Shown here: one piece after another, positions 19 through 28,201 of the stretch | Position numbering within the stretch: the first letter of the stretch is position 1 | Layout of the letters: every line of letters begins with the position of its first letter | IMG/VR virus record: IMGVR_UViG_3300032282_003516 | Span: 1-36,420 of that record | DNA: 36,420 nucleotides | Strand: one strand, 5' to 3' | Origin: a virus | The notes under the pieces: model-generated | Database searches by the model: none | The model's input: the letters and a program-made list of their open reading frames with translations, nothing else | What the model was told of the DNA's origin: nothing | Made by a program: the position numbers and the translations under genes

Positions 19-2124
<2,106 letters not shown>

Positions 2125-18851: not shown

Positions 18852-20512
18852 ATTGGATACAATGCAGTCGGGGGCGAACCCGTGTGCCGCATGCCTTCCT
18901 CGATCTCAGCTTGCCGCTCTGGTGCCCGCGTCAGCATGCCCAGGTCGCGCATGTGGCGTATCGCCATCGACACGGTGTCCACAAGGTCATCGTTTTTCCC
19001 CTTGGGAAAGTTTTCGCATTGCGTGATCACCTTGTCAGCCCAGGATCGATCGGGGGCGTAGATCATCTCCTCGGCGAAAAGGTGAACGATGGAATGAACG
19101 CGGGCCACCTTGTCCTGGTTGCCGGGGTTCACAAGCTGCACCGCCCAACCCTCGTGCCCGAACAGGCGCCGTAGTTCCTGGGCCACACTATGCCCGGCGG
19201 CCTTGTCCTCGATGAGGAGCCTGTCCACCCGCATCTTGCGGCAGGTATTCGCCACCCGGACGACGAGGTCGTGTAGCTGTAGCCTCTCCGCCCAGGCATC
19301 CATCAGCATCAGGCGCGGCGCGGTCTCGGTGACCATCCGCTCTACCTGCCCGGCGATCCCATCCGCCCCGATGACCCGCGTGGCTTGGTGGACCGTGTCC
19401 CCGGTGAACACGCCCCAGACCGTCAGCGCAGAAAAATCATTCTCTTGCTTCGTGGTGTAGGCCGTGTCCAGGCTGGCCACGACGAAATCCATAGGAGGAT
19501 ATGCTCCGTCAGGCCAAAGCTGCCACCATTCCCGCTTCAGTATCTCGCCACCCTTTGGGGCTGGGCGCTGCTGTAGCTGTCCGGCGGCGGCGTATGGCCC
19601 GAGCGTTTTCTCCAGCAAAGATACTTCATTCTCGGGGAAGCGTTCCGGCCAGAGGAGTTCGCCTTCCTGGGTGCGCGGATCTTCCCATATGATCTCTTCC
19701 CCGTCCTCCGTGGCCCAGGCGGGCACGAGAACCGTATGGAACGATCGCTCTGGCTCGAAGCGCATGGGGAGGCATAGGTGCGTCCAGGCGCCCACCTGCT
19801 TTTCGAGGACGTGGCCACTGATGTCCCGGTCGGACAGGCGCTGGGCGATGACGATGCGGCAGCCGGTGACGGGATCGTTCAGGCGGTTATACCAAGCCGT
19901 GTCCCACCAGTTTATGGCGGCCTCGATCATGGCATCGCTGTTGGCCTCGGCGGCGTTGTTGAGATCGTCGGCGATGAGATAGTTGCCACCAAGACCGGTC
20001 GTCGTGCCGCCCACGGACACCGCGATGCGGGCGCCGTTCTTGTCGTTCTGAAACCGCGTCTTGGTGTTCATGTCGCCAACCAGAGCGAAGCGATCCCCCC
20101 ATCTCTTTTGATACCATTCGGACTGGATGAGCGTGCGACATTTCACGCTGTCCTGCACCGATAGGCTCATTGCATACGATGCGTGGAGGAACTGGGCGCC
20201 GGGGCCTGACAGAGACGTGCGCTGGCTCTGCGCCCAGACCCAGGCGGGGAACGCGGTCCCGCAGATCGTGGACTTGCTGAAGCGTGGCGGGATGTTGATC
20301 AAAAGGTTCCGTATGTGACCATCGCAGCACGCTTGCAGGTGTTCGCACACTGCCTGGATGGCGTAGCCGCCTTGGGCGAACTGGGCACTATCGATCGCCG
20401 GCCACGCGGCTTCCACAAAGGCGTAGAGGTCGTCTTCTAGGTCCGCTTTTTCTATTTCAAGCAATACGTTACGGGCATCGAGCCTCGTGCCACCGATCGT
20501 GATCAGGCTCAC
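18848..20512 (-). CDS. terL: Terminase large subunit
   Basis: 554 residues from a GTG at 20512. The ATPase part has the Walker A-like NIPPRFSKST and the Walker B YLIADD about 105 residues later. The nuclease part has three acidic sites: ASLDTAY, LLIEDKAAG and GKNDDLVD. It cuts and pumps DNA through the portal. The open frame reaches a TTG at 20536, but the GTG is preferred: GGGGGAGG lies just upstream, the GTG overlaps the methyltransferase stop (GTGA), and SLITIGG is a typical beginning. The segment between TTG and GTG falls in a short repeat shared with 23866-23927. TerS and portal flank it within the same operon. Confidence 0.92.
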   Translation of the reverse strand: MSLITIGGTRLDARNVLLEIEKADLEDDLYAFVEAAWPAIDSAQFAQGGYAIQAVCEHLQACCDGHIRNLLINIPPRFSKSTICGTAFPAWVWAQSQRTSLSGPGAQFLHASYAMSLSVQDSVKCRTLIQSEWYQKRWGDRFALVGDMNTKTRFQNDKNGARIAVSVGGTTTGLGGNYLIADDLNNAAEANSDAMIEAAINWWDTAWYNRLNDPVTGCRIVIAQRLSDRDISGHVLEKQVGAWTHLCLPMRFEPERSFHTVLVPAWATEDGEEIIWEDPRTQEGELLWPERFPENEVSLLEKTLGPYAAAGQLQQRPAPKGGEILKREWWQLWPDGAYPPMDFVVASLDTAYTTKQENDFSALTVWGVFTGDTVHQATRVIGADGIAGQVERMVTETAPRLMLMDAWAERLQLHDLVVRVANTCRKMRVDRLLIEDKAAGHSVAQELRRLFGHEGWAVQLVNPGNQDKVARVHSIVHLFAEEMIYAPDRSWADKVITQCENFPKGKNDDLVDTVSMAIRHMRDLGMLTRAPERQAEIEEGMRHTGSPPTALYPI

Positions 20513-21906
20513 GGGCCTGCCTCCCCCGGATGACAAAGCCCCCCTGGGCGTCCTGCGCGCCCGGCGAGACGTTCGCGCTCAATATCTGCCTGTTTGCGCT
20601 TCGTCGCACCGCTCTTACGGTCGCGTCGGCTGGGCATGGCCTCGACGCCGAAGTAGGCGGATGCGCCAGACAGGTCGAGAGACAAGAGCTCTTCATCGCC
20701 CAATGCGATTATTTGAGAAGGTCTCGTCGGCTTAACGCCCAACGCTAACATGACTTGACTGGCTATAGCGCGGGCGAGCGGCGGCGGAACCGCGTTGCCG
20801 ATCTGTCTGGCCCCGTGCCATTTTGTGACATTAAAGCGGAACCAATCCGGGAAGCCATGCAGACGTGCCATTTCGCGCACTGTAATGCACCGATCAAACC
20901 GATAGTGAATCGGTCGTGGGCTGGTGAATGCACCTCGTGCGCCGTCCGTTCCGGCGCGCAGCGTATTAGAAACGCCCGTTTCTGAGAGCTTGAGGAAACG
21001 GCTGATGGGTTCGACCGATCCTGGTTCGGTTTCGGAGAACCGGCGGCGCGTGATATCCGTGTGTTCCGTTCGGCTGCTCGACGTAAGAAATGAACGATCC
21101 CAGTCACGGACGTACCCGAAGTGCCACGCTTCGTTGGTCATGCATCGAAGCTCGGCAGCGTAAGCGGAAGGTTCACTGCTTGTCCAGAATTTTGGACACT
21201 CCCTGGTAGCGTACGTAGTTGTCTTGACACTATCACTGCTCAGCAAGGTCTGAAATCGATCTGCATTCGGGAGGTCCCCAAGGGCATCTGCACAAGTCGG
21301 CCCTTGCGGCAAACCGTCATAGACGGCTTTTCGCCCTGCAAGATTAGCGATGGGCGAGGGATAATCAGGAAGCGTCTCTCCCTTCCTGCACCCGAACAGA
21401 ATAAGGCGCTCTCGAAACTGCGGGGTCCCGAAGTTTCCGGAATTTAGAACCTTCCACGGTTGACGGACGTCGTATCCGGCCTCATCGAATGCGGCGACAA
21501 GTTCTTTGAGAAATTTTTGGTGTCTTCCGACTGTAAGACCTTTGACGTTCTCAAAAACGAATGTGCGGGCGTCGAGTTCTGAGACGATTCGAACGAAGTC
21601 CTGGACTAGCCTGTTACGTGGATCGTTCAGCGCGCGATGGCCAATAAGGGAAAAGCCTTGGCACGGTGCGCCCCCGAAAACGCAATCAACTTGTGCATTG
21701 CCGATGCCGGCGGCCTTGCGGATTTCCGTGCCGCTCAGGTCTTCAACGGACCGCGATACGATGCGCGAATTTGGGAAATTGAATTTGTGCGCGGCGCAGT
21801 GCACCGGATCGATTTCGACGGCGGCGGCAACGTCGAAGCCTGCCTGTTCGAACCCGAGGCTCATGCCCCCGGCCCCCGCGAAAAGATCGATTCCTATCGG
21901 CCTCAT
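20509..21906 (-). CDS. DNA cytosine-5 methyltransferase
   Basis: About 465 residues. Motif I is IGIDLFAGAGGMSLGFEQAG, motif IV is GGAPCQGFS with the catalytic Cys, motif VI is FENVKG, motif VIII is QFRERLILFG, and motifs IX-X are VREMARLHGFPDWF and RQIGNAVPPPLA. It transfers a methyl group from S-adenosylmethionine to C5 of cytosine. The target site is set by the variable region between motifs VIII and IX and cannot be read. ATG at 21906 (MRPIGIDL) follows AGGACAGGAC; an in-frame ATG at 21942 is less well placed. No restriction partner is nearby, so protection or regulation is likelier. It splits the usual TerS-TerL order and is slightly AT-richer than its neighbours, as expected for an inserted gene. 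Confidence 0.93.
   Translation of the reverse strand: MRPIGIDLFAGAGGMSLGFEQAGFDVAAAVEIDPVHCAAHKFNFPNSRIVSRSVEDLSGTEIRKAAGIGNAQVDCVFGGAPCQGFSLIGHRALNDPRNRLVQDFVRIVSELDARTFVFENVKGLTVGRHQKFLKELVAAFDEAGYDVRQPWKVLNSGNFGTPQFRERLILFGCRKGETLPDYPSPIANLAGRKAVYDGLPQGPTCADALGDLPNADRFQTLLSSDSVKTTTYATRECPKFWTSSEPSAYAAELRCMTNEAWHFGYVRDWDRSFLTSSSRTEHTDITRRRFSETEPGSVEPISRFLKLSETGVSNTLRAGTDGARGAFTSPRPIHYRFDRCITVREMARLHGFPDWFRFNVTKWHGARQIGNAVPPPLARAIASQVMLALGVKPTRPSQIIALGDEELLSLDLSGASAYFGVEAMPSRRDRKSGATKRKQADIERERLAGRAGRPGGLCHPGEAGP
20515..20576. repeat. Direct repeat copy A (methyltransferase-TerL junction)
   Basis: 62 bases matching 23866-23927 at about 54 positions in the same orientation. In the plus-strand frame both copies read LPPPDD..PLGVLRARRDVR. 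Most differences are silent in that frame. Here the sequence is antisense to the methyltransferase 3' end, which suggests a leftover piece of a plus-strand gene. Confidence 0.8.
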
Positions 21907-21984
21907 GTCCTGTCCTGCACTTGCCGGCCTTCGTTGAATCATACCACTAGCTTAGCCCAGTTAGTACAATATGTTGATCATTAT

Positions 21985-22470
21985 CTAGAATTTATCCACA
22001 AAATCTTGTAGTCGAATGGCTTCCAGCTTCGGCTTTTCGGGCAGCGGGCGATAAGCCAGCTTGTGGTGGCCGGCGCAATACGGTCTACCAGGGCGCCGCG
22101 CTTTTTGGCACTGGGTGTAGGGGCGATCGTCTCCGTCCAGCCACTGGCATGGATCCACAGACCGCAGGATGGTCACGATCTCCATCCTGGGCGGCCTGGG
22201 GAGCCTGATCACCACGGGCGGGGGCTCAGGCGGGGCTACAGTGGCCTGGGGGACGACGGCGGCCCTGGTCACCGGATTGACCCGCCCAGGCGCCCCCGTC
22301 CGTCTCAGGCGCCCTATCACGCTGTTTCGGGACCGACCCAGCTTCTGGCCGATCTGCGTGACAGTGTATTCCCACTGCCCGTCCTCCGTGGCCGCCATCC
22401 ACAGGGCGTGGAGATACTCGGTCTGGTCCTGGGTCCATGGCTCCTCGATACGTAGGTCCAGACGCGCCAC
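21985..22470 (-). CDS. GcrA-like transcriptional regulator
   Basis: 161 residues. The N-terminal part (about 10-60; EPWTQDQTEYLHALW, then VTQIGQKLGRSRNSVIGRLRR) matches the GcrA DNA-binding helix region. The C-terminal part (CQWLDGD..CQKARRPGRPYCAGH..AYRP) matches the GcrA core-binding end with its Cys/His pattern. In Caulobacter, GcrA binds sigma70-RNA polymerase and activates promoters whose DNA carries adenine-methylated GANTC. A phage copy could redirect host transcription. The start is GTG at 22470, overlapping the TerS TAG by one base (TAGTG). It lies inside the packaging operon, an unusual place. I saw no GANTC in the two divergent promoter regions of this phage. Confidence 0.85.
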   Translation of the reverse strand: MARLDLRIEEPWTQDQTEYLHALWMAATEDGQWEYTVTQIGQKLGRSRNSVIGRLRRTGAPGRVNPVTRAAVVPQATVAPPEPPPVVIRLPRPPRMEIVTILRSVDPCQWLDGDDRPYTQCQKARRPGRPYCAGHHKLAYRPLPEKPKLEAIRLQDFVDKF

Positions 22471-24253: not shown

Positions 24254-24574
24254 CTACGAGGCCCGTCCCATGGCGGCCTGCTCCAGCGGGGTATCGGCCA
24301 GCATTCCCAGCGCCCACTTGTAGGTCTCCAGCAGCATCTGCTCCTCCGACACCTCCCCTGCCGCCCGACGGCGCTCCGCGATCAGGTTCCGCAACACCTT
24401 GGGGACGAACCCGGCGCTTTTCGCCTCGGTGTAGATGTCCTTGATGTCCTCGCCGATCGCCCGGCGCTCATCCTCCAGGCGCTCGATCCTCTCCACGATC
24501 GACCGGAGCCGGTCAGCAGCCACGCCAGTCGCCCCGTTCTCGCCGCCGCCCACGTTGTGTCCGATGTCAGCCAT
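24254..24574 (-). CDS. GapR-like nucleoid protein (DUF2312)
   Basis: 106 residues. RLRSIVERIERLEDERRAI, GEDIKDIYTEAKSAGFVPKVLR and YKWALGM follow the GapR/DUF2312 order: a coiled coil, then DNA-contacting helices. GapR of Caulobacter is a small tetramer that encircles over-twisted DNA and helps replication and transcription. A phage copy may manage supercoiling at replication forks or at highly transcribed phage genes; this is inference. The first 20 residues (GGGENGATG) are an extra flexible start. It is the last gene of the minus early operon and overlaps the 67-residue gene by 8 bases. Confidence 0.88.
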   Translation of the reverse strand: MADIGHNVGGGENGATGVAADRLRSIVERIERLEDERRAIGEDIKDIYTEAKSAGFVPKVLRNLIAERRRAAGEVSEEQMLLETYKWALGMLADTPLEQAAMGRAS

Positions 24575-25433: not shown

Positions 25434-25820
25434 TTAATTGCCTTCGCTTTCTGTGTCAAGCACCGTCACTGTCACCCGGACGCGCCCGCCCTTCACCGGC
25501 TCCAAGCGCCGCAGGACGAGCCAGTCGATCTGGCTGTCGTCCAGCCACACCCCCGCCCTGGTGCAGGCGTCCCCTGCCGTTTTCCAGGCGTTGTCCAGAT
25601 CGCGCGCCCGTTTGTCCGGCGGAGATATCTCCACCTCCACCTTGAGCCGCCCGGTCAGGGCCACGTTCACGCCCTGCCTCATCAGGTCAAACCGGGTCAG
25701 CGCAAAATACGCATTGGCTTTCGGCGACAGCCAGTGACCCCCGGTCCCATGCCTCACGGACGTGTTACCAGTCGGGGGATACCCGAGTGTGAAAGTCAGG
25801 GTTTCAGGATCAAGTCCCAT
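25434..25820 (-). CDS. rusA: RusA-family Holliday junction resolvase
   Basis: 128 residues, the usual RusA length. The signature PPDKRARDLDNAWK (about residues 67-80) with its acidic pair, a following GDACTRAGVWLDDSQIDW and the closing VRVTVTV strand match the family. RusA dimers cut four-way junctions using clustered Asp residues; here D74, D76, D94 and D95 are present. It fits the recombination-based replication suggested by the plus-strand operon. It is the first gene below the GTGCCCC array, which may hold its promoter. TTGAGGAATAAG precedes the ATG. Confidence 0.87.
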   Translation of the reverse strand: MGLDPETLTFTLGYPPTGNTSVRHGTGGHWLSPKANAYFALTRFDLMRQGVNVALTGRLKVEVEISPPDKRARDLDNAWKTAGDACTRAGVWLDDSQIDWLVLRRLEPVKGGRVRVTVTVLDTESEGN

Positions 25821-25900
25821 TCTTATTCCTCAAAAATTAAAAACTTCTTTTCTTCTTCCCGCCCGCGCGCCCTGCCCGTTGAATACTATATCCCCCCACC

Positions 25901-26072
25901 GTGCCCCCCCTCTAAATAGGGGGGGCACTGGTGGTCGGGTATTCAAAGATATCGCTGGGGCACGTGCCCCACATTAACGGGGCACGAAAAGATTTTTGAA
26001 AATCAAAAACTTGAGCCAATTTCAGCTTGTTCGTGCCCCGGAATAGCCCCGTGCCCCGTATGGGTCGGGGCA
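25901..26072. repeat. GTGCCCC heptamer array with nested inverted repeats
   Basis: The 305-base gap 25821-26125 holds no convincing gene. It has seven GTGCCCC/GGGGCAC copies at 25901, 25922, 25957, 25964, 25979, 26033 and 26051. They form 10-base arms with an 8-base AT loop (25901-25928), a perfect 16-base palindrome TGGGGCACGTGCCCCA (25956-25971), 11-base arms CGGGGCACGAA/TTCGTGCCCCG 41 bases apart (25978-26040), and a 7-base pair TGCCCCG/CGGGGCA (26052-26072). An AT-rich hairpin (GATTTT, AAAATC; 25991-26004) lies inside the third. Candidates: iterons of a replication origin next to the primase-helicase gene, or operators for the RusA operon. Confidence 0.85.
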
Positions 26073-26125
26073 TGGAGTGATTGTTGACTACATCGAAACA
26101 ACTAAAATAAGAGCAAGAAATTCTC

Positions 26126-28201
26126 TCAACTCTCATTTTCTTGCTCCTCCATAGAAGATTTTTCTTTTGCCTTTTTCGCTTGTAGGATGCTCCACGCGAG
26201 GTCTTGTTGGAGCACTTGTATGCCTTCGGCGGTCACACAGCCGGGGAGTGTGACGTATCCTTTCCGCTCGGCTGGTTGGATAAACCCTCGCTTATGGAGT
26301 TCATCCAGTATTTTGCCGGCCTTTTGTTTTGAGCAATCTGCTGCTTCGGCGAGTTCCCGTTCGCTCATCCACTGGCTGTGTAGATGGCTGAGTGCCCACC
26401 TGATGGTGATACCGTGTCCTTTATTGTCTGTTGCCAGGACGGTGTGCAGGACATCTTGCTGCTGGGCTTGTTGGCTTGCGTCCACCAGCACGGCGCTAGT
26501 GATTGGTTCTCCGTCGTCGTCTACGACGCCCAGGTCTACTGAGAGCAATTCGAATGCTTTTGGTGGCGCGGGTTCTGCATCTTTCATTTTTGTAGTGCTA
26601 AAGGTCACGAGACCTTCTGCACTTTTGACGACTTCGTATTCGGCATCCACGGCTGCTTTCAGGCTGCTGGATCCGCGTGCGCGTTCTTGGTTATGTCCGC
26701 TGTGGTGAATTACCAGGACGGCGCACCCGAACCTTTGGCGGAACCAGTGATCCACGGCGGTCACGAAGGCCGTCATGTCTTTTGTGCTATTTTCGTCGCC
26801 GGGGCCGTAGTTCCGTGCGAGGGTATCGATGATCACTAGGATGGGTGGATCATTGCCGCATATGGCTGCGATACGGTCGGAGTGTGCCTGCACAGATTTA
26901 GGGTCCAAGGTCTGCATTGCCCCGGCGGATTTCCACATTGTCCCTTGCGCCATGGCGATGACGTTGTTGTGCATTTTCCAGGCCGCGAACCGCCTATGTA
27001 GGCCGTTGTGCCCTTCGCCGGCAATGTAGATGACTTTGCCTTGCCGCACGGGGTGTATGCCCCTCCAGGGCATCCCTGTCGCCACGGAAGACCCTAGGTC
27101 GATTGCCAGGAAGGACTTGCCTGATCCTGGGCCGCCGTAGATCAAAGCCAGGGCGTCGGCTTCCACGATGTCTTTTATGACCCACTTGATGGGCTTGATC
27201 TCGCCCAGGGCTTCCATGTCGAGGTAGAGATCGTCCGCGCCTTGCTCTACCTCCTCTACGGGCGCCTCGCCCAGGTGGTGCGGCGGCTTCCACCCCGGCG
27301 CTGCCTCTGCCGCCAAGTGGAACAACGTCCCCGCCCCGATCTGGGTGGGCGGCGAATTGAAGTAGTGATCCCATCGGGCGTTGGTTTCATCCGGATTGTA
27401 GGACGGGTTCTGGCCTGACCATGCGTGCCATACCTCTCGCCCACCTTCGGTGCCGCCAGTAGCTGCCCAGAGCGCCATGCCGACCCGGTTCCACCGTTCC
27501 CAGTCGCGGGGGCCTTCGTTCCTGATCTGGGCCATGGCATCTGCAGCGGAGAGGATCGAGGTTCGCTGCCCCATGCTGCTGGTATAGCCGCCCGCATCGC
27601 CCTGTCCGGATGTTGTACGTACATCCTCCGCCGCCCCGATGATCGGCGCCACGGCGGCCAGGAACTCGTCGATCTCGACTTCCGTAACCGGCGGCAACTG
27701 CGTGTCGGAAAAATCCCCTGGCCCGCCTTCGGGCCACTCTAGCGCGGCCCCGGAGGCGTGGGTGCCGAAGGCCACGAATTGTTGCCCCCGCCCCAGGATC
27801 TCCACTTTGCCGTGATCGCCCGCGATCGATCGCTTGCCGGGTTCCCCGCTGATGGCCCGGTAGAGCATCAGGATACGCGGGCTGTTTGCCCTGGTCCGCC
27901 GGGGAGCCTCGCCCAGGATGCGCTCGGCTTCCGCCTGGATACGCTCCACCAGGGCGGGGTCGTCCACGTCGATATCCACGGCGCGGAGCCCGTCGGCCAG
28001 GATGCCGGTGTTCAGCGCGTGGACAACCGGCGGCGCCGTCACACAGAACGGCGGGTCTCGCCGGGCATCCCCTATCCAGTCTTTGCCCAAGGGCCGCTTG
28101 CCGGGCGATGGGCCGTTGGTGTCATGCGACACGATCGGCACGGGCCGGAAGCCCGTATCCCAGACGCGCTGACGGATAGCTAAGACGTTGTCTGTATTCA
28201 C
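26126..28201 (-). CDS. Primase-polymerase/RepA-like helicase fusion
   Basis: 691 residues from a GTG with GAGGA upstream. Residues 1-190 are a bifunctional primase-polymerase domain with the acidic motif VDIDVDD (75-81). About 215-300 resemble a primase C-terminal linker (WERWNRVGMALWAATGG). About 335-560 are a RepA/RecA-like ATPase: Walker A GGPGSGKS (356-363), Walker B ILVIIDT (454-460) and VIHHSGH (497-503). A winged-helix segment ends the protein (about 600-650; ELAEAADCSKQKAGKILDEL). It should both prime and unwind DNA at the phage origin. The repeat array starts within 60 bases of its stop. It heads the minus early operon. Confidence 0.9.
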   Translation of the reverse strand: MNTDNVLAIRQRVWDTGFRPVPIVSHDTNGPSPGKRPLGKDWIGDARRDPPFCVTAPPVVHALNTGILADGLRAVDIDVDDPALVERIQAEAERILGEAPRRTRANSPRILMLYRAISGEPGKRSIAGDHGKVEILGRGQQFVAFGTHASGAALEWPEGGPGDFSDTQLPPVTEVEIDEFLAAVAPIIGAAEDVRTTSGQGDAGGYTSSMGQRTSILSAADAMAQIRNEGPRDWERWNRVGMALWAATGGTEGGREVWHAWSGQNPSYNPDETNARWDHYFNSPPTQIGAGTLFHLAAEAAPGWKPPHHLGEAPVEEVEQGADDLYLDMEALGEIKPIKWVIKDIVEADALALIYGGPGSGKSFLAIDLGSSVATGMPWRGIHPVRQGKVIYIAGEGHNGLHRRFAAWKMHNNVIAMAQGTMWKSAGAMQTLDPKSVQAHSDRIAAICGNDPPILVIIDTLARNYGPGDENSTKDMTAFVTAVDHWFRQRFGCAVLVIHHSGHNQERARGSSSLKAAVDAEYEVVKSAEGLVTFSTTKMKDAEPAPPKAFELLSVDLGVVDDDGEPITSAVLVDASQQAQQQDVLHTVLATDNKGHGITIRWALSHLHSQWMSERELAEAADCSKQKAGKILDELHKRGFIQPAERKGYVTLPGCVTAEGIQVLQQDLAWSILQAKKAKEKSSMEEQENES

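Follow-up and report, generated by a model that had tools for sequence, protein, structure and literature searches.

The Rep protein of SaPIs and Cch2 of SCCmec bind iterons located directly downstream of their own genes, and do so through a C-terminal domain (PMC7581432). The oriV of RSF1010 contains iterons together with ssi stem-loops that are used by a primase, pRN1 depends on a stem-loop that immediately follows its Prim-Pol/helicase gene, and a predicted stem-loop has been noted 3' of the related gene of phage BIP-1, with parallels to P4 and RSF1010 also described (PMC4234260). A search of openly licensed literature turned up no paper that describes the present layout for phage helicases of the RepA type, and the replication origins of most phages are unknown.

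The window analyzed here is an entire virus record of 36,420 bases (IMGVR_UViG_3300032282_003516), in which a gap of 305 bases separates a leftward gene coding for a 691-residue helicase from a leftward RusA gene. The gap contains an array extending from 25901 to 26073, with eight heptamers in both orientations around a hairpin. The features of the region are as follows.

25434-25820, minus strand: RusA Holliday junction resolvase gene (Pfam RusA 8e-13), the next gene, in the same direction as the helicase
25901-25907, plus strand: heptamer 1, GTGCCCC, exact; one arm of the dyad hairpin
25901-25928, no strand assigned: dyad hairpin, GTGCCCCCCCT-ATTTAG-AGGGGGGGCAC on the minus strand; an imperfect version of the palindrome with CT-W(n)-AG centre that occurs in the arrays of relatives
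25922-25928, minus strand: heptamer 2 (GGGGCAC on the plus strand), exact; arm of the dyad hairpin
25957-25963, minus strand: heptamer 3 (GGGGCAC on the plus strand), exact; pairs with heptamer 4 in a 16-base palindrome
25964-25970, plus strand: heptamer 4, GTGCCCC, exact
25979-25985, minus strand: heptamer 5 (GGGGCAC on the plus strand), exact
25986-26032, no strand assigned: AT-rich spacer of 47 bases, 70% AT, containing the hairpin GATTTT-TG-AAAATC; candidate melting region
26033-26039, plus strand: heptamer 6, GTGCCCC, exact
26051-26057, plus strand: heptamer 7, GTGCCCC, exact
26067-26073, minus strand: heptamer 8, a one-mismatch variant (GGGGCAT on the plus strand)
26126-28201, minus strand: initiator candidate of 691 residues with a GTG start; Prim-Pol, PriCT_2, RepA-type (AAA_25) helicase and a probable C-terminal winged helix
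26249-26416, minus strand: predicted winged helix, about residues 596-651, likely reader of the heptamer (Pfam PF25213 and AF2)

Exact matching recovers all seven copies of GTGCCCC or its complement that the initial annotation had reported between 25901 and 26057, and its estimate that fewer than one copy should occur by chance also holds, the expectation from dinucleotide shuffles being ~0.046 (about 0.05) in 157 bases. The Poisson probability of at least seven copies in 157 bases is 8e-14, or ~3e-9 after multiplying by all positions. The eighth heptamer had been overlooked. The whole window has 17 copies of GTGCCCC/GGGGCAC against 10.7 +/- 3.3 in shuffles, and a check of heptamer density elsewhere shows the array to be the window's only cluster of at least five mixed-orientation heptamers within 300 bases. 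Its sites are 7-9 bases long, lie in two orientations and are irregularly spaced. The start of RusA is 80 bases away, as first described, and the helicase stop codon is 69 bases from the exact copies and 52 bases from the variant. Open reading frames of 71-74 residues span the gap, none of which matches a Pfam family, and GC skew has no switch at the array, with its cumulative minimum near 29-31 kb. Neither megablast of most of the window nor distant blastn of the gap against phages gave a match; the 100% identical contig L001 ends within the helicase and L120, whose RusA is 85% identical, starts within RusA, so the gap is covered by neither. Elsewhere in the window (1091-1364) same-strand 7-mers (CCTGTAG, CCAGTAG) recur within a tail-fibre gene with collagen-like matches; these are coding repeats, unlike the heptamer array.

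The inverted repeats described initially are present, including the 16-base palindrome TGGGGCACGTGCCCCA (25956-25971), a repeat with 10-base arms (25977-25986/26050-26059), a repeat with 11-base arms 41 bases apart (25978-25988/26030-26040), and the AT hairpin in the spacer, which is visible directly in the sequence; the small hairpin at 25963-25986 also exists, with arms of 8 rather than 7 bases. The strongest hairpin, with 11-base arms (25901-25911/25918-25928) and a 6-base loop, had escaped notice. Folded as single-stranded DNA, the array region is 10 standard deviations below shuffles (z -10), and the composition of the AT-rich spacer is matched by 0.35% of the window's 47-mers. Very strong hairpins just 3' of a gene could act as a transcription terminator or in mRNA processing at the end of the primase gene, but we find this scarcely credible given that the sole terminator-like match is on the plus strand, opposite to the genes, with none on the minus strand, and that this single match in the region compares with a shuffle average of 1.5. 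Moreover, one and the same word recurs on both strands, no T-run accompanies the dyad, and an Rfam search of the region matched no family.

The adjoining protein contains a fused primase and hexameric helicase, of the AEP and RepA types respectively, with Pfam matches to AAA_25 (3e-41), PriCT_2 (6e-16) and Prim-Pol (2e-8). The helicase core is modelled with pLDDT >90 in most blocks, and its best solved structural match by Foldseek is RSF1010 RepA, with which the model aligns at Z 22.4 (rmsd 2.6, 226 residues). The C-terminal match to the wHTH family PF25213 is weak (E 4.6e-5, under the curated cut-off), and AF2 predicts helices at residues 596-607, 614-620 and 625-637 together with a wing strand, at pLDDT of about 52-83; the winged-helix model is of medium confidence with the family alignment, and modelling of the C-terminus alone as a single sequence was unusable. 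No close relatives of this domain were found in viral contigs. The helicase's own predicted C-terminal winged helix is the likely binder of the heptamers, rather than GcrA or GapR. Genes for a GapR-like DNA-binding protein (24254-24574, minus strand) and a GcrA-like cell-cycle regulator (21985-22470, minus strand) are located in the same leftward gene block, which suggests an alphaproteobacterial host and an influence of the phage on the host cell cycle. The window also codes for a C-5 cytosine DNA methylase (20509-21942, minus strand; Pfam 4e-64).

The GTGCCCC cluster is absent from 52 viral relatives of the helicase. The relatives' loci were then scanned for any over-represented 7-mer, and in most of them an array lies directly after the helicase stop codon. 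In a rigorous set of 45 non-redundant loci (C-termini <80% identical), using as criterion a 7-mer at shuffle p <= 0.005 within -60 to +340 of the stop codon, 35 have a significant array immediately 3' of the stop, usually in mixed orientation; control windows elsewhere in the same 45 loci seldom match its copy count. The array words include TTGGACA, CGGGACA, CCGGACA, TCGGACA, CGTTACA, GTGACAA, CGGTACA, GGGGACA, TGGTTCA, GCGGAGA, CTCATCC, TCCTCAC and others, the arrays reach up to 14 sites, and the genes following them differ. Rhizobium phage RHph_N65 has a 12-copy array, and arrays are also present in Roseobacter phage CRP-406, Salicola phage CGphi29, Alteromonas phage XX1924 and Idiomarinaceae phage 1N2-2; Caulobacter phage GB2A has none. 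The initial annotation had proposed that relatives without the motif at this locus, but with both genes, would count against its reading. The exact heptamer is indeed lacking, but an array of another word occupies the same place, and different-word arrays at the same position support an origin. As judged from these sequences, the layout is shared by most of the relatives and not unique to the window, and the heptamer word is lineage-specific. Since dozens of distant relatives share the layout with different words, the array is most likely a docking site for the start of replication.

The position of the arrays also bears on the second possibility raised initially, a multi-site operator, in which a repressor, either the initiator or a different HTH protein of the phage, would bind the heptamers and control the leftward operon's transcription. 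Palindromic GGGGCAC-GTGCCCC pairs do resemble dimer operators, the array is upstream of RusA, and many Rep proteins also autoregulate. However, in most relatives the array follows the initiator gene whichever gene comes next, and is thus on the wrong side for autoregulating that gene; a search of the region for a sigma-70-like promoter found none, and up to 14 sites with a conserved dyad exceed the needs of an operator. We therefore favor the origin, and regard the operator as unlikely.

Most of the relatives' arrays hold a GC-rich palindrome whose centre consists of CT, one to four A/T and AG (e.g. ACACCCTTTAGGGTGT and ATATGCCTATAGGCATAT). A palindrome with this CT-W(n)-AG centre and a stem of at least 6 occurs in 27 of the 45 loci versus 0.3 expected from shuffles, and the same strict rule is satisfied by 3 of 2574 control windows. 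When palindrome and sites were scored jointly in the 35 arrays, under a slightly looser palindrome rule, 30 had the palindrome inside the array, and the nearest flanking repeats were inverted in 30/30, a test that covers inverted versus same only, because the flank direction label is set by the palindrome. The window's dyad does not pass the strict rule (stem of at least 6); it is an imperfect member, GTGCCCC-CCCTATTTAGAGGG-GGGGCAC, whose two repeats are each 7 bases from the centre. Loci L109, L114 and L186 have neither array nor palindrome, L035 has neither significantly, and BPP-1 has a stem-loop and no array. The conservation of the dyad poses the question of whether it is an opening site or a primase start site.

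P4 served as a positive control, for which the blind scan returns GTGAACA in seven copies immediately 3' of gene alpha; these match the annotated ori type-1/crr repeats, and the annotation describes crr as a cis requirement of replication. Six circular plasmid-typed records, most with phage genes, were also scanned and four have arrays: Caenibius p1 (12 copies), the 35 kb Methylobacterium currus record (8), pMRAD08 (6) and a 17-kb Klebsiella record (6), with none in Photobacterium p2_510 and pMt-1. The first three are complete circular phage-plasmids with both array and palindrome, and no other replication initiator is annotated on them, plasmid annotation being incomplete. The initial term iteron-type origin fits, since an array occupies the same position relative to the helicase gene not only in 35 of the 45 relatives but also in P4 and in circular phage-plasmids. 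The repeats, however, are not the direct ones of a classic iteron origin; they are inverted or mixed and include a dyad hairpin. Short sites are likewise arrayed at parS and in attachment arms, as in the P4 att arm repeats, and the heptamers might instead belong to a partition site or centromere, a recombination site (cos/pac/att) or some other protein-binding array unrelated to initiation. This seems very improbable, in that the terminase genes are about 3-7 kb from the array, and the array tracks the helicase gene across hosts and contexts, and not ParA, integrase or terminase.

GTGCCCC arrays were also sought from the motif alone, with all viral contigs being scanned for three GTGCCCC sites in the arrangement > > <, protein information unused. 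Among the 58 three-site loci recovered are seven in which the array is found where an AAA_25-type gene ends (L191, L200, L209, L213, L218, L230 and L236, with L213 and L236 carrying the same array), compared with 0/48 of the comparison loci picked for a single GGGGCACGTGCCCC palindrome. Helicases were recognised with a broad HMM set, since one built on proteobacteria overlooked those of actinophage type; the broad set included five motif-first genes already assigned to AAA_25 by Pfam, so that the 7/58 count is not blind to these and rests on HMM and Pfam together. In an eighth locus (L199) the order is that of the window: a winged-helix-like C-terminal fragment comes first, then a GTGCCCC array that includes a short palindrome, then a RusA gene. 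The initial annotation knew of no described example with this motif, a statement superseded by these eight further arrays, each lying 3' of either a RepA-type helicase gene or a C-terminal fragment that resembles a helicase. In L240 it is a D5-type Prim-Pol helicase gene whose end carries an array, and a near-identical array, reversed, is present in L219. The C-termini of L191, L213, L218, L199 and L230 are mutually closer than about 97-100% of different-word pairs, and the window's C-terminus is outside this similarity group. GTGCCCC clusters in L203, L221, L225, L232, L242 and L246 follow no recognised helicase gene, and clustering of the heptamer by itself is thus not diagnostic. The arrays in L221 (1765-1918) and L225 (1840-2017) are composed of inverted pairs (in L225, GTGCCCC-GGAATCC-GGGGCAC), and that in L225 follows a gene matching C-5 cytosine methylases, not a helicase. 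A search for the palindrome-plus-third-site pattern returned none; the low-GC contig L057 (655-825) has two GGGGGGCACGTGCCCCCC-like palindromes with a third variant, GGGGGGCATGTGCCCCCC, further along, and no helicase match at the locus.

The words also bear on whether the heptamers are single-strand start sites for the Prim-Pol domain, in the manner of GTG (pRN1, NrS-1) or TTTGGTTA (NrS-1). GTGCCCC starts with GTG, a recognised start for related Prim-Pols (PMC4234260; PMC8718748), and the hairpins could expose start sites. We nevertheless consider this quite improbable: the relatives' words are often without GTG on either strand (TTGGACA, CCGGACA), the M. currus array follows a separate AAA gene that adjoins a Toprim primase gene, the L230 gene has AAA_25 only, and GTG mutants of pRN1 remain replicating (PMC4234260).

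Reading by the winged helix is suggested by co-variation across the family. Motif similarity is correlated with C-terminal similarity (Mantel rho 0.23, p 0.0005), including when the helicase core is removed (partial Mantel rho 0.19, p 0.0005); an association of motif with core persists with the C-terminus removed, but is weaker (0.15, p 0.02), and all of these p values are indicative because the set includes related groups such as the TTGGACA loci. Contigs L005, L006 and L007 have helicase-core blocks that are 92-100% identical and last blocks that are 31-36% identical (gaps included), and use the words TCCTCAC, TTGCTCA and TCCTCCG respectively; they appear to form a natural specificity-switch series, with a second variable block between primase and helicase (65-68%). 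Separate dense repeats are present at the starts of these three contigs. As no close relative of the window's winged helix was found, the co-variation is a finding on the family rather than on the window's own protein.

We consider it quite likely that the array is the phage's cis-acting replication origin, of a P4/SaPI-like kind, or a crr-like initiator-loading part of it, read by the winged helix of the adjoining helicase. In the mechanism that we propose by analogy, the product of the adjoining gene would bind GTGCCCC as double-stranded DNA via its C-terminal winged helix, and the inverted sites would make initiator complexes face each other across the CT-ATTTAG-AG dyad and the AT-rich spacer. 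These complexes would melt the duplex and bring about loading of the hexameric ring of the RepA-type helicase, and the fused Prim-Pol domain would lay primers on the exposed strands or the hairpin. The heptamer would be lineage-specific because winged helix and repeats change together. On balance we lean towards a still broader reading, in which the RepA-type initiators of phages, prophages and phage-plasmids constitute a widespread class of portable replicons, each carrying its own origin just where its gene ends and all on one plan, in which heptamers in inverted orientation surround a CT-W(n)-AG dyad and the heptamer is rewritten along with the winged helix. Such a class would amount to a natural protein-DNA specificity code, and its origins could be read from raw phage sequence. 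In phages and phage-plasmids that have a RepA-type initiator, inspection would then be enough to find the origin, which could be cloned to give a minimal replicon, and the dozens of initiator-heptamer pairs already matched in nature would be available for studying how winged-helix specificity changes.

The window array is distinct from a classic iteron plasmid origin, which has tandem direct repeats of about 17-22 bases. It shares with SaPI Rep and Cch2 the location of repeats directly downstream of the initiator gene, but those proteins belong to the D5-related helicase group and not to RepA/AAA_25, and reading by the C-terminus is here suggested by co-variation across the family; this comparison is with the published description of SaPI. 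RSF1010 (IncQ) has the closest solved helicase, also RepA-type, but uses separate RepA, RepB' and RepC proteins and direct 20-base iterons, whereas the window has a fused primase, helicase and predicted reader with short inverted repeats. pRN1 and BIP-1 resemble the window in combining an AEP primase, a helicase and a wHTH, the last being predicted in the window, with a stem-loop that immediately follows the gene and is essential in pRN1 and predicted in BIP-1 (PMC4234260), but have an SF3 helicase and one large stem-loop with no repeat array, in place of an AAA_25/RepA helicase with an array. P4 differs in its Toprim-type primase (PMC4234260), in having a separate ori and crr about 4.5 kb apart, and in that its crr has no CT-W(n)-AG dyad by eye. 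Its alpha protein, however, shares with the window a primase-helicase with a C-terminal winged helix (PMC4234260), which in the window is predicted, and P4 crr has, as does the window, short repeats of mixed orientation directly 3' of the initiator gene.
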